This document shows, in pieces, positions 57,630 to 62,664 of a DNA stretch of 64,000 nucleotides (the stretch's first letter is position 1; each line of letters opens with the position of its first letter). The notes under the pieces are model-generated. The model was not told where the DNA came from. It did no database searches and saw nothing but the letters and a program-made list of their open reading frames with translations. Source of the stretch: Spartobacteria bacterium LR76 (GTDB lineage Bacteria > Verrucomicrobiota > Verrucomicrobiia > Chthoniobacterales > Terrimicrobiaceae); assembly GCA_003054655.1 (NCBI GenBank), contig QAYZ01000016.1:62001-126000 (forward strand), written 5' to 3'. The translations under genes were made by a program, and so were the position numbers.

Positions 57630-58538
57630 ATGTCTCGTTACCGGGTGTTGATCTTAGGTTTGCTAGCGCTGGCCGGCTGTGCAACGGAATCCACGACTCG
57701 CACCTCCTCGCCCGCGAGAGTCGAGGCGGCCCGCCCGCTGATCGCAGCCGCGCCGGCGGCCGCAGGTCCGGTCTGGCCCGCTTCAGCGCCGCAGATCCAC
57801 GCCCGGTATGCGATCATGATCGATGCGCGTACAGGCCGAACCCTGTACCAAAAGAACGCCGACGTGCATTCGCAGGTCGCGAGCACTCAAAAGCTCGTGA
57901 CCGCTCTCGTGCTTCTGCAGCGGGGCGATCTGGCAGGAACTCTGACCATCGCACGGGAGGATACGCTGGTCGAACCCGGCAAGCTCAACGTCCGCGCCGG
58001 GCAGACGTACTCGCGCGTCGCTCTGCTCTCCGCCATGATCGTGAAGAGCGAGAACGATGCCGCCGCCGCCCTCGCCCGCGACCACTCCGGCAGCATTCCG
58101 GCATTCGCTGCCGAGATGAACCGCCTTGCGCGCGAGATCGGGGCGAACAACTCGTATTTCGCCAATCCGCACGGCCTGCCCGCCTCGCAATACTCGACCG
58201 CGCGCGATATGGCGATCATCGCCTTTCATGCGTATCGCGAGCCGCTGCTGCGACGTCTGATGGCTACGAAATACTACACCTTCCTCTACGCCGATGGCCG
58301 GGCGAAGCAGCTTGAGAATACCAACAAACTCCTCGGCCGCTCGATGATCTGCAACGGCATGAAGACCGGGTTTACCTACGCCGCCGGGCGTTGCCTCGTT
58401 TCCAGCGCCACCAATGGCAGCCGCGAGGTGATCCTGGTTCAGCTCGGCAGCAAGACGAACTATATCTTCAACGACGCCGAGACGATGATGCAGTGGGGGC
58501 TGAACTCAGGTTCGCCCTTTTCGCTCGCCTCGTACTAG
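57630..58538 (+). CDS. D-alanyl-D-alanine carboxypeptidase-like lipoprotein (peptidase S11)
   Basis: A 302-residue protein. Lipobox LAGC (Cys17) follows MSRYRVLILGLL. Penicillin-binding motifs: STQK (85-88), SEN (140-142), KTG (245-247). Such enzymes trim the terminal D-Ala of peptidoglycan pentapeptides. The length shows a single catalytic domain without a C-terminal beta domain or anchor helix. It converges with the SNF2 gene with a 4-bp overlap. Confidence 0.92.
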   Translation: MSRYRVLILGLLALAGCATESTTRTSSPARVEAARPLIAAAPAAAGPVWPASAPQIHARYAIMIDARTGRTLYQKNADVHSQVASTQKLVTALVLLQRGDLAGTLTIAREDTLVEPGKLNVRAGQTYSRVALLSAMIVKSENDAAAALARDHSGSIPAFAAEMNRLAREIGANNSYFANPHGLPASQYSTARDMAIIAFHAYREPLLRRLMATKYYTFLYADGRAKQLENTNKLLGRSMICNGMKTGFTYAAGRCLVSSATNGSREVILVQLGSKTNYIFNDAETMMQWGLNSGSPFSLASY

Positions 58539-60871
58539 CCGACCAGTTCGCGCAGATCCTCGGTGTCGAGCCGCTCCAGGGCGGTGTCGGCATCGACCGT
58601 GCCCTCGAGGAGTTCGCGCTTTTTCTGCTGCATGCGCAGCACGCGCTCCTCGACGGTGTCGCGGGCGATCAGCTTGATCGAGGTCACCACGTTCTTTTGT
58701 CCGATGCGGTGGGCGCGGTCGGTGGCCTGCGCCTCGACGGCGGGATTCCACCACGGGTCGAAGTGGATCACCGTATCCGCTGCCGTAAGGTTGAGACCCA
58801 CGCCGCCTGCTTTCAGGCTGATGAGAAAGACCGGGATGCTCGCATCCGTCTGGAACCTCTGTACCACGCCCTCGCGGTCCTTGGTGGAACCATCGAGTCG
58901 GCAAAAGCTGATGCCCGCCTCGTTGAGATTCTCGCCGATGAGGTCGAGCATGGAGGTGAACTGACTGAAGACGAGGACGCGGTGCCCGCCGTCGATCGCC
59001 TCGGACAAAAGCTCGCGCAGTGCATTGAGTTTTCCGGATTCCGTTCCCTCCGGCGCGCCGAGCAGCCGCAGATCGCAGCAAGCCTGGCGCAGGCGCAGGA
59101 GCGCCGTGAGCACGCGCATGCGGGTGGCTCCCGCGCTGCTGCCAGCGTCCTTCATCGCGTCGATCTGGGAGCGCGCAGTCTGCTGGAGCTGGGTGTAGGC
59201 GGTCTTTTGCTGGTCGCTGAGCTCCACCTCGATGACCTGCTCGATTTTGTCGGGGAGTTCAGTGAGGATTTCCTGCTTGCGCCTGCGGAGCAGGTAGGGG
59301 CGCAGGCGGCGGTTGAGCCGCTCCCATGATGACCCGACGGCCCCGTTCAGGAGCGGTGTTTCGTAGGTGTCCTTGAAATCCTGCCGTTTGCCGAGATAGC
59401 CGGGGAGGAGGAACTCGTAGAGCGACCAGAGATCGCGCAGGGAGTTCTCGATCGGCGTGCCAGTGAGAATGAACCGGCTTTTTGAGCGCAGTGCATAGGC
59501 CGATTTGGCATTCTGGCTCTCGGGGTTCTTGATGTGCTGGGCCTCGTCGAGAATGACTGCGCCAAACTCGTAATCCCGGAACATCTCGATGTCGCGGCGC
59601 AGCAGGGCGTAGCTCGTGATCGCGAGATCATGCTGCGGGATTTTCGGGAAAAGCTGTGCGCGCTGCGGTCCGTCGAGCGCGAGCACTTTCAGGCCGGGCA
59701 GGAAGTGAGCGGCCTCGCGCTTCCAGTTCCATACCAGCGACGAAGGGCAAACCACGAGGGCAGGGGAGCGGAGCGACTCCAGCATGGCGAGCGTCTGGAC
59801 GGTTTTGCCGAGGCCCATCTCGTCGGCGAGCAAACCACCGAGGCCGGACCGTGCGCGCTGGAGCAGCCAGAGAGCGCCCTCGCGCTGGTAGGGCCGCAGG
59901 GTGTTTCGCAGGGACCCCAACTCGCTTTCCGGCAGGCCTTGCGAGGTCTGCGGTGTGGCGCGTCCAGTCCACTCGGCCACGCTGGCCTCCATGTAGGCGC
60001 GATGCACGGGGGAAAGCCGGTATCCGCCGCGCTCCTGCTTCGGATCGCAATCGCGGAGCACCTGCTCGATCTCGGCCTCCAGCCCCGCATCGGCCACGGC
60101 GATGCGGCCATCGCCCAGCTTCACGCTGCCCTTGCTGGTCTGGAGGAGATTGCGCAGATCGGTCGGGGAAAAGACGGCGTTCTTCCCGGCGGTGTAGTGG
60201 ACGTGAAAGTCCAGCCACCCGTCGCCGCGCTCCTTCATCGCGAAGTGCGGCTCGATGCGCACGATGTCTTTCGTCACGTGCTGGAAACGCTCACCCTCCT
60301 CCACCTGCCAGCGGTCTTTCCACTGCGGCAGGGTGTTGGCAAAGAACTGCACGACCTGCTCCTCGCCCTGGAGGGCTGCCTTGCCCTTATACTCCTGAAA
60401 GCCTGCACCCAGCATTTCGGTGAGCACCTGGGCCTCGGCTGCCGGATTGCACACGCCCGGCTGGGAGTAGGAAAAGGAAATCTCGGCCTCCAGGTGGCGG
60501 AGCGATCCCTCCAGCTTCACCTTCACTGTCGGAACCTCGCCGGTCGGCGCGGAGGCGGGACGTTCGACGCGCGCGGGTTCCGGCTTCGCCGCCTTGCGCG
60601 GATGCAAGACCTCCAGCCCCACCGCGACGGAATGCGCGCAGATGATGCCGCGCACGCGGGACTCCCGGCACGGGCAGAGGTTCTCCACGTCGATGGGATT
60701 GCGCATGCGCAGACCGGCGGGGAATTGCTTTCCACCCTCGGAATATTTGCCGCGAAGCACCGGCGCCTCGTAGGTGGCCTCGATGATGCGCCCCGACTCG
60801 TGCAGGGCTCGGGCTTGTTTGACGACCGGCCATCCGGCCATTGAGATGAGAAGTTTTTCCGTTAGCTCCAC
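58535..60871 (-). CDS. SNF2-family helicase with SWIM zinc finger
   Basis: A 778-residue protein. N-terminal SWIM motif ENLCPCRESRVRGIICAHS (CxC...CxH, about residues 63-81). The SNF2 core: LLADEMGLGKTVQTLAMLES (motif I), ILDEAQHIKN (motif II, DEAQ), LTGTPIENSLRDLWSLYEFL (III), then C-terminal helicase motifs VLVFSQFTSMLDL, LISLKAGGVGLNLTAADTVI and ATDRAHRIGQ. It is an ATP-driven DNA translocase probably acting on protein-DNA complexes or in repair. Cytoplasmic. Confidence 0.93.
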   Translation of the reverse strand: MELTEKLLISMAGWPVVKQARALHESGRIIEATYEAPVLRGKYSEGGKQFPAGLRMRNPIDVENLCPCRESRVRGIICAHSVAVGLEVLHPRKAAKPEPARVERPASAPTGEVPTVKVKLEGSLRHLEAEISFSYSQPGVCNPAAEAQVLTEMLGAGFQEYKGKAALQGEEQVVQFFANTLPQWKDRWQVEEGERFQHVTKDIVRIEPHFAMKERGDGWLDFHVHYTAGKNAVFSPTDLRNLLQTSKGSVKLGDGRIAVADAGLEAEIEQVLRDCDPKQERGGYRLSPVHRAYMEASVAEWTGRATPQTSQGLPESELGSLRNTLRPYQREGALWLLQRARSGLGGLLADEMGLGKTVQTLAMLESLRSPALVVCPSSLVWNWKREAAHFLPGLKVLALDGPQRAQLFPKIPQHDLAITSYALLRRDIEMFRDYEFGAVILDEAQHIKNPESQNAKSAYALRSKSRFILTGTPIENSLRDLWSLYEFLLPGYLGKRQDFKDTYETPLLNGAVGSSWERLNRRLRPYLLRRRKQEILTELPDKIEQVIEVELSDQQKTAYTQLQQTARSQIDAMKDAGSSAGATRMRVLTALLRLRQACCDLRLLGAPEGTESGKLNALRELLSEAIDGGHRVLVFSQFTSMLDLIGENLNEAGISFCRLDGSTKDREGVVQRFQTDASIPVFLISLKAGGVGLNLTAADTVIHFDPWWNPAVEAQATDRAHRIGQKNVVTSIKLIARDTVEERVLRMQQKKRELLEGTVDADTALERLDTEDLRELVG

Positions 60872-60924: not shown

Positions 60925-62040
60925 GTGAGCCGACACCTCTTTTTCTACGCGTTTTCCTTCTGCTGCCTGATCAGCGTCGTCCTTGGGGCCGATGTGCCTG
61001 TTGCCACCCAGACGCCGACTCCCGCTCAACCCATCAAGGTCGCCGTGATCGATCGCCCGCCCTTTGCCATGAAGGACAAGGACGGCGAGTGGACCGGGCT
61101 ATGTGTCGAGCTGTGGGAAAACATCGCGAGCGAGTTGAACATCCCCTTCGAGTATCACGAGACGGATCTCGATCACGTGGTCTCGCAGCTTGCCGACGGC
61201 CAGCTTGATCTGGCCATTGGCGAGATCGGTGTCTCCGCCGAGAGGGGCCGGGAGGTGGACTTCACCCAGTCCTTTCTGTCCTTCCCTTCCGCCGTGGCCC
61301 TGAATCGTCGGCGAGGTACCGCGCAGGTGACGGATTTTTTCGCGGAAATGTCCCAGCATGGCGTGATGTCCGTCGTTTACATCATGCTTGGCACATTGAT
61401 GGTCTTCAGTCTGCTTCTCTGGCTGGTGGAGAGAGGCGTGCATAGCACCCATTTCGGGGGCAAGCCGATCCATGGCTTTGGCTCTGCGCTCTGGTTTGCC
61501 GCAGTCACCATGACCACGGTCGGATACGGTGATAAAACCCCGCAGACCCCGCTGGGTCGCTTCCTGGCATTCCTCTGGATGTTCTTCGGCATCCTGCTGG
61601 TCAGCGCCTTTACCGGTGCCTTCGCTTCGAGCCTTACTGTTTCGCGGTTGCATTCGGACGTGAACCGTTTGAGTGATCTTTCCCGGTATCGCACCGGCGT
61701 GCTGGAGGGTTCGGTGGGGCAGGGAGCGCTCTCGGCCATGGGGATCACGGTGGATGCCTTCAAGACTCCGGAGGAGGGCATGAGCGCCCTCGCCACCGGG
61801 CAGATCGGCGCGTTTGTCACCTCCGAGGCCTCGCTACGGTACCTGAACCACTTCAAGTACGGCGATCGCTTCGAGGTCGTCCAGTTACCAACGACCAAGG
61901 TGTCTTTCGCCATGGCGTCCCGGCCAAATTTCCCTCTCCTGCGCCCAATCAACATCGCTATCATCGGAGAAACGACCCGTCTCGAGTGGGAAAATAATGT
62001 TCAGCGCTGGCTGGGGCCGCCTCCCGGCTCGGAAAACTGA
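60925..62040 (+). CDS. glutamate-receptor-like potassium channel (GluR0 type)
   Basis: A GTG start with an AAAGGA site. A 371-residue protein with signal peptide (MSRHLFFYAFSFCCLISVVL). Ligand-binding lobe 1 occupies about 37-140, with VIDRPPFAMKDKDGEWTGLC and RGREVDFTQSF. M1 is about 147-167, the pore carries MTTVGYGD (196-203), the K+ selectivity filter, and M2 is about 212-236. Lobe 2 follows to 365 (VGQGALSAMGITVDAFK, GQIGAFVTSEASLRYL). This is the layout of prokaryotic ionotropic glutamate receptors, which open a K+ pore on amino-acid binding. No linked gene explains its physiology. Confidence 0.92.
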   Translation: MSRHLFFYAFSFCCLISVVLGADVPVATQTPTPAQPIKVAVIDRPPFAMKDKDGEWTGLCVELWENIASELNIPFEYHETDLDHVVSQLADGQLDLAIGEIGVSAERGREVDFTQSFLSFPSAVALNRRRGTAQVTDFFAEMSQHGVMSVVYIMLGTLMVFSLLLWLVERGVHSTHFGGKPIHGFGSALWFAAVTMTTVGYGDKTPQTPLGRFLAFLWMFFGILLVSAFTGAFASSLTVSRLHSDVNRLSDLSRYRTGVLEGSVGQGALSAMGITVDAFKTPEEGMSALATGQIGAFVTSEASLRYLNHFKYGDRFEVVQLPTTKVSFAMASRPNFPLLRPINIAIIGETTRLEWENNVQRWLGPPPGSEN

Positions 62041-62133: not shown

Positions 62134-62664
62134 ATGGCACTCGTCGTCCAACGTCCTAAATTGACTCTCGCCGAGAAACTCTATCTCCCGTCGATCATCG
62201 CCGGGTTGCTGGTTACTCTCAAACACTTGCGCAAGGTGGTCACCGGCAAGACCAAGGTCACGATGCAGTATCCCGAGGAAAAGTGGGACAGCCATCTGCC
62301 CGACTGGTACCGCGGTGCCCCGACTTTGGTGGCCGATGAGCATGGCAAGGAGCGCTGTGTCGCCTGCCAGCTCTGCGAATTCATCTGTCCTCCCCGCGCC
62401 ATCACCATTCATCCCGAGGAAATCCCCGGCGACACGAAGTGGGCCAAGGTGGAAAAGCGCCCGAAGGAATTCGAGATCGACATGATCCGCTGCATTTATT
62501 GCGGACTCTGCGAAGAGGTCTGCCCCGAGCAGGCGATTTTCCTCCAAAAGGATTACTCCATCACCGGTTACAGCCGCGCGGAGATGAAGCACGACAAGAA
62601 GAAACTCTACGAACTCGGCGGCGTAAAGACCGGCCTCGTATACAAGTGGAACGAAAAAAAGTAG
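62134..62664 (+). CDS. nuoI: NADH-quinone oxidoreductase subunit I
   Basis: A 176-residue ferredoxin-type protein with two 4Fe-4S motifs: CVACQLCEFICP and CIYCGLCEEVCP. The N-terminal TLAEKLYLPSIIAGLLVTLK helps attach it to the membrane arm of complex I. It passes electrons along the NuoG-I-B chain. It is the first nuo gene in the window; nuoA-H are not upstream. Confidence 0.95.
   Translation: MALVVQRPKLTLAEKLYLPSIIAGLLVTLKHLRKVVTGKTKVTMQYPEEKWDSHLPDWYRGAPTLVADEHGKERCVACQLCEFICPPRAITIHPEEIPGDTKWAKVEKRPKEFEIDMIRCIYCGLCEEVCPEQAIFLQKDYSITGYSRAEMKHDKKKLYELGGVKTGLVYKWNEKK

Follow-up and report, generated by a model that had tools for sequence, protein, structure and literature searches.

A K+-channel clade of the prokaryotic glutamate receptor type with a fixed pore and an apparently rebuilt ligand site

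Introduction

Prokaryotic ionotropic glutamate receptors (iGluRs) are taken to be sensors of glutamate, and work on ligand switching in the family has dealt with animals. The closest described relatives of the channel considered here are GluR0 of Synechocystis (slr1257), GluR0 of Nostoc punctiforme and the channels of "Group 1" (Ger et al., 2010). Synechocystis GluR0 is reported to reside in the plasma membrane in an orientation inverted relative to that of KcsA, to restore K+ uptake to Escherichia coli LB2003 in a manner that requires its soluble domains, and to slow shrinkage under KCl upshock (PMC13099474). In the account of 22 prokaryotic channels by Ger et al., an S1 Arg that holds the α-carboxylate and an S2 Asp that holds the α-amino group of the ligand are described as totally conserved (Ger et al., 2010; PMC2950845).

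In animals, the glutamate-holding residues are less constant. Insect Ionotropic Receptors are iGluR relatives that are reported to have mostly lost these residues, with only three Drosophila receptors listed as keeping the Arg, an S2 Thr and the Asp/Glu (PMC7882480). In placozoan and other animal iGluRs, a few residue changes are reported to switch the ligand; changes at three residues switched the ligand of one placozoan receptor, and D705 is missing from some epsilon receptors (PMC12226733). Unlike the channel described below, these are eukaryotic proteins with non-K+ pores.

Here, we describe an iGluR-type channel gene of Spartobacteria bacterium LR76 in a stretch of 64,000 nucleotides (the window; contig QAYZ01000016.1, positions 62,001 to 126,000). 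The channel shares the S1-M1-P-M2-S2 order and the K+ filter with GluR0 and Group 1, and likewise has neither an amino-terminal domain nor a third helix, but differs from them in having Ser300 for the Asp and Gly102 for the Ser/Thr of S1. The pocket expected to grip glutamate is thus rebuilt in the channel and its relatives, and the channel probably senses another chemical. The interest of the locus lies in a K+-channel branch of the family that seems to have left glutamate, rather than in a glutamate receptor of a soil-type bacterium. Its features are as follows (positions in the window).

58535..60871, minus strand: SNF2 helicase, divergent upstream neighbour (context only)
60925..62040, plus strand: channel gene, 371 amino acids, GTG start, intact frame; predicted iGluR-type K+ channel
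60925..60990, plus strand: putative signal peptide, residues 1–22 (hydrophobic N-terminus by inspection; helix 2–21 in the model)
61033..61302, plus strand: S1 lobe, one half of the ligand-binding clamshell, residues 37–126 (Pfam SBP_bac_3 from residue 37; model; fold match to 1ii5)
61222..61230, plus strand: Glu100 to Gly102, ligand-site positions of S1 (alignments; Gly102 stands opposite Ser/Thr in most other rows)
61243..61245, plus strand: Arg107, aligned with the conserved α-carboxylate Arg of GluR0 (mafft, hhalign; role as given in PMC2950845)
61363..61431, plus strand: M1 helix, residues 147–169 (model)
61465..61533, plus strand: pore helix and K+ selectivity filter, residues 181–203 (model, Pfam; invariant in a 13-row alignment)
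61549..61653, plus strand: M2 helix, residues 209–243 (model; SAFTGAFASSLTV at the place of AMPA-receptor SYTANLAAFLTV)
61669..62013, plus strand: S2 lobe, the other half of the clamshell, residues 249–363 (model; fold match to 1ii5)
61822..61827, plus strand: Ser300-Glu301, Ser in place of the α-amino-binding Asp, with Glu at the +1 position (mafft, hhalign)
62134..62664, plus strand: nuoI, first gene of the nuoIJKL block (context only)

Domain Architecture and Structure Model

The channel protein matches Pfam SBP_bac_3 (E = 2.2e-18), Lig_chan (5.5e-17; 62.4 bits, cut-off 30.8), Ion_trans_2 (3.6e-15), Lig_chan-Glu_bd (3.7e-8) and Ion_trans (5e-7), each over its cut-off. The motif MTTVGYGD occupies residues 196–203 and includes TVGYGD (residues 198–203), the K+ signature of the pore loop. 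With its Lig_chan domain and its lobes arranged around a pore, the channel is a member of the iGluR superfamily by architecture. In a sequence search of the PDB, the top match is Arabidopsis GLR3.4 (E = 9.1e-16), and AMPA receptors come next.

An AlphaFold2 model of the monomer, built from an alignment of 7 sequences (the channel itself and six rows from related loci), reached a pLDDT of 80.1 and a pTM of 0.59, and replaced a single-sequence model, which was discarded (pLDDT 44). In the 7-row model, a helix at residues 2–21 is followed by S1 (37–126), M1 (147–169), the pore helix (181–195), the filter (198–203), M2 (209–243) and S2 (249–363). An earlier note, made from the sequence alone, had described ligand-binding lobes flanking a pore with an exact MTTVGYGD, which the coordinates, filter, Pfam matches and model bear out, and had staked its reading on the S1-M1-P-M2-S2 order, which the model shows correctly.

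The lobes superpose on the Synechocystis GluR0 core 1ii5 with a Z score of 24.4 (rmsd 2.4, 218 residues aligned) and on the Nostoc GluR0 core 2pyy with a Z score of 24.0, and engineered glutamine-binding proteins tie with these cores at 24.6 and 24.5 (VIA-align). In a Foldseek search with the model, chains comprising the ligand-binding and transmembrane domains of AMPA receptors form the top rows (E = 6.1e-20, TM 0.55). The domain order and the VIA-align lobe matches therefore indicate a GluR0-like architecture. The SBP_bac_3 amino-acid binding proteins of ABC importers have the same lobe fold, as the glutamine-binding proteins illustrate, but have no channel between the lobes; identification of the gene product as such a binding protein was rejected, as a pore lies between its lobes and the NCBIfam transporter models score far below their cut-offs.

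Ligand Site

Two independent alignments (mafft; hhalign against the paralogue profile A2) place Arg107 at the conserved Arg, Ser300 at the Asp site and Gly102 at the Ser site, and the channel is ungapped around Ser300 and Glu301. The positions of Glu100 and Gly102 are those that we take to correspond to Pro478 and Thr480 of GluA2. In S2, Ser263 is kept, and Val264 occupies a position with Thr in 25 of the 60 rows outside the clade of the channel. The match to the GluR0 family proposed in the earlier note therefore stands for the iGluR architecture, the K+ filter, the GluR0-like lobe fold and Arg107, and is unsupported as to membership of the glutamate-binding group, since the Asp is replaced by Ser300 and the Ser/Thr by Gly102.

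Phylogeny and Variation of the Clade

Homologues were collected from the genomes of the family (26), order (197), phylum (288, by Lig_chan) and class (286), supplemented by a few rows from plasmids and viral contigs; sampling beyond Verrucomicrobiota is thin. The order search yielded 89 places, from which all matches above 300 bits and part of the weaker ones were taken in, and sequences were taken from 6 of the 68 plasmid records with a match. A tree of 90 rows was built with IQ-TREE from columns other than those of the ligand site and with no animal rows. Four truncated or odd rows were left out, namely L019 (which lacks S1 and has the Asp), L020 (a split gene, also with the Asp), L088 (with all of Arg, Thr and Asp) and L120 (Arg, Ala, His), as were L022, matches below 130 bits and near-identical duplicates.

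The channel sits in a clade of 30 rows with support of 100/98, and every one of these rows has a K+ filter (GYGD or GFGD). The full set of Arg, Ser/Thr and Asp/Glu is found in 0/30 clade rows vs 40/60 other rows, and Arg and Asp/Glu occur together in 3/30 vs 45/60. Taken singly within the clade, the Arg is kept in 10 rows, the Ser/Thr in 3 and the Asp/Glu in 23. The set as counted for insects (Arg, Thr at position 264 of S2, and Asp/Glu) is likewise absent from the clade (0/30 vs 21/60 of the others). The nearest rows outside the clade (L084, L086 and L087; support for the join, 82/89) keep all three residues. On the tree, the minimum number of state changes is 7 for the Asp and 8 for the Arg.

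The site has changed in different ways within the clade. In the subclade of the channel (8 rows, support 99/93), the Arg is present in all 8 and the Asp is changed in 7; the sole row with the Asp, L007, has both residues. The sister group of 11 rows shows the reverse pattern: the Asp is kept throughout, the Arg is replaced by Ser, Ala or Asp in all 11, and Glu is often found at positions 100 and 102. From these residues, the pocket of the sister group looks as if it has turned from carboxylates towards cations. As read from the alignment, the site of the clade is rebuilt in different ways with the K+ pore fixed. The site is likewise broken in rows beyond the clade, namely in 13 of the 26 other K-filter rows (7 of them in family f16) and in 7 of the 34 non-K rows.

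The K-filter rows of family f16 without the Arg are L111, L113, L115, L116, L117, L195 and L197, three of which have an Arg at the Asp place. On a separate branch, L186 and L188 (family f89) have Asn at the Asp site and Glu at +1, as in the subclade of the channel.

Such channels, which the earlier note called rare, are more frequent in this lineage than that word allows: a K-filter homologue is present in 17 of the 26 family genomes, and an iGluR-like match (E ≤ 1e-25) in 57 of the 197 genomes of the order, with a Lig_chan match in 26 of 288 across the phylum. A search of a collection of genome contigs returned only 2 relatives. Among the titles that searches of open-licence PubMed Central listed, with subscription papers outside their scope, no description of this clade or of such site loss in bacteria was found.

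Selection and Divergence

Intact homologues of the channel are found in related genomes at 89%, 75% and 51% identity. The dN/dS ratio was estimated by a simple Nei–Gojobori count against the two same-genus copies, G008 and G009, with dS saturated in some small parts. Whole-gene values are 0.081 and 0.123, respectively; constraint is strongest in the P-loop and M2 (0.010 and 0.006), and the lobes show values of 0.071 and 0.162 (S1) and of 0.096 and 0.158 (S2). The gene is under purifying selection and, with its intact homologues and low dN/dS, is therefore more than a chance open reading frame.

Evolution of the channel outpaces that of the genes beside it. Protein identity to G008 and G009 is 89.5% and 74.9% for the channel, 96.7% and 96.8% for SNF2, and 99.4% in both for nuoI. 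The dS of the channel is 0.72 and 1.40 (L037, L038), vs 0.25–0.49 for the neighbours (0.49 and 0.49 for SNF2), and faster mutation or allele exchange may therefore add to the fast evolution.

Ligand Gating and Alternative Explanations

We favour, with somewhat better than even confidence, the explanation that the protein is a prokaryotic iGluR-type, K+-selective channel whose gate responds to a small molecule of the periplasm, probably one other than an ordinary α-amino acid. The two lobes would form a periplasmic clamshell that a small molecule closes, and the closure would pull on M1 and M2, opening an inverted K+ pore, presumably tetrameric, with the filter towards the cytoplasm. By analogy with GluR0, K+ should pass on this closure, and the resulting flux might reset membrane potential and turgor. 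Arg107 could continue to bind an anion, such as a carboxylate. Ser300, however, stands in place of the Asp that grips the α-amino group, and Gly102 in place of the Ser/Thr of S1, which is why an ordinary α-amino acid is improbable as the ligand. Several points count against this: Arg107 is kept, Glu301 may stand in for the Asp, L007 has both Arg and Asp, incomplete sites are found outside the clade as well, and GluR0-type cores are reportedly able to close without ligand, as the title of one paper states. Support comes from insects, in which loss of the glutamate-site residues is reported to go with new ligands (PMC7882480).

The channel could instead be gated by an amino acid, as GluR0 is, with Glu301 taking the α-amino contact and Arg107 the carboxylate, a reading that we consider rather unlikely. 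It draws on the retention of Arg107 and Ser263 and on the presence of Glu at +1 in all 7 rows of the subclade that lack the Asp and again in L186 and L188 on a separate branch. Across the tree, Glu or Asp at +1 accompanies a change of the Asp (12 of 15 rows with such a change vs 5 of the other 75; Fisher p = 8.5e-9, the rows being related), which could mean compensation; however, the 5 are rows with the Asp/Glu in place, and for independent pairs a sign test falls short of significance (median p = 0.25). Moreover, as the alignment is ungapped and the strand of the model ends at 300 with a helix starting at 301, Glu301 should not occupy the place of the Asp, and Gly102 and Val264 would take away two further contacts.

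A third possibility, that the lobes serve assembly and the channel acts as a leak or as an osmotic or ionic-strength valve outside ligand control, appears improbable. It would fit the wide variation of the site residues in the clade above a fixed pore, and Synechocystis GluR0 is reported to have a volume-control role under KCl upshock for which the soluble domains are needed (PMC13099474). The purifying selection on the lobes (dN/dS 0.071–0.162) speaks against it, as do Arg107 in 8/8 subclade rows and Ser/Thr263 in 28/30 clade rows. Decay of the gene, with the site lost as the receptor dies, might be read from the changed site and from the split homologue in G013, but is hardly credible and was rejected, being largely refuted by the dN/dS of the gene and its pore, together with the intact frame and the full-length homologues in many genomes.

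Extended from gating of this channel by a non-amino-acid ligand to the clade, a broader picture, to which we give a little less than even weight, is that of an order-level K+-channel clade that would have abandoned the amino-acid ligand one lineage at a time. Its members may instead respond to different compounds of the periplasm: anions in the subclade of the channel, and cations or amines in members with an acidic or neutral residue for the S1 Arg. The genome of the channel also encodes two iGluR-like paralogues with non-K+ filters. On this view, the clade might be a counterpart in bacteria of the insect Ionotropic Receptors, whose glutamate-holding residues are likewise reported as mostly lost (PMC7882480). 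The likeness is one of analogy, with no kinship claimed beyond iGluR: the insect receptors are animal proteins with other pores, and the Thr used in counting them belongs to S2, in contrast to the S1 position of our Ser/Thr.

Such a clade, its K+ pore constant and its ligand site rebuilt repeatedly, would offer a simple two-helix system for studies of ligand change and would caution against annotating these genes as receptors for glutamate. A further question is what soil-type bacteria perceive through electrical or turgor signals.

Genomic Neighbourhood and Paralogues

The setting between an SNF2 helicase and nuo genes, as given in the earlier note, is confirmed, with SNF2 upstream on the minus strand and nuoI, nuoJ, nuoK and nuoL downstream. 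The order SNF2–channel–nuoI is found in the genome itself and, continued by nuoJ, nuoK and nuoL, in G008, G009 and G002 out of 16 family loci in the comparison, nuoI being absent near the other 13; SNF2 is present near the homologue in 6 more of the 16, with no nuoI, some loci ending at contig ends. As no neighbour hints at the ligand and the linkage is confined to these 3 loci, the remark that the gene has no obvious partner also holds. nuoH is on another contig, and an operon with nuo is unsupported beyond two genera. A scan for promoters and terminators gave nothing usefully above chance (promoter-like sites, 1 vs a mean of 0.4 in shuffled sequence; terminator-like sites, 2 vs 1.1).

The paralogue L002 (G000:C11:140248-141303), 17 kb from the channel, has a full site (Arg, Ser, Asp) and the non-K+ filter LVGGADN. 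The other, L003 (G000:C13:78641-79693), is on another contig; in it, Leu stands for the Arg and Ala for the Asp, and the pore, GKSAYKG, is of a non-K+ type. In a related genome, the K-type homologue at G013:C2:711512-712565 (L020, L052) is spread over two frames, through a frameshift, as a pseudogene or by assembly error.

Related Channels on Viral Contigs and in Other Bacteria

IMG/VR viral contigs of 40 to 264 kb carry GluR0-like K+-filter channels with a full site (Arg, Thr, Asp), namely L133, L134 and L136, and the same genes recur in L135, L140–L143 and L177. L133 and L134 have a common coiled-coil neighbour that matches phrog_26980. A phage nature of the contigs of L133, L134 and L136 is suggested by the label of the collection and by weak PHROGs matches. 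On a 51.6-kb IMG/VR contig, the K-filter homologue L139 (4881-5996) has a changed site, with an acidic residue (Glu or Asp) close to the Arg position and Asn instead of the Asp. The relatives L181 and L184 from Photobacterium and Vibrio have the full site and the pore motif FITKGPFNYF or FITRGPFNYF.
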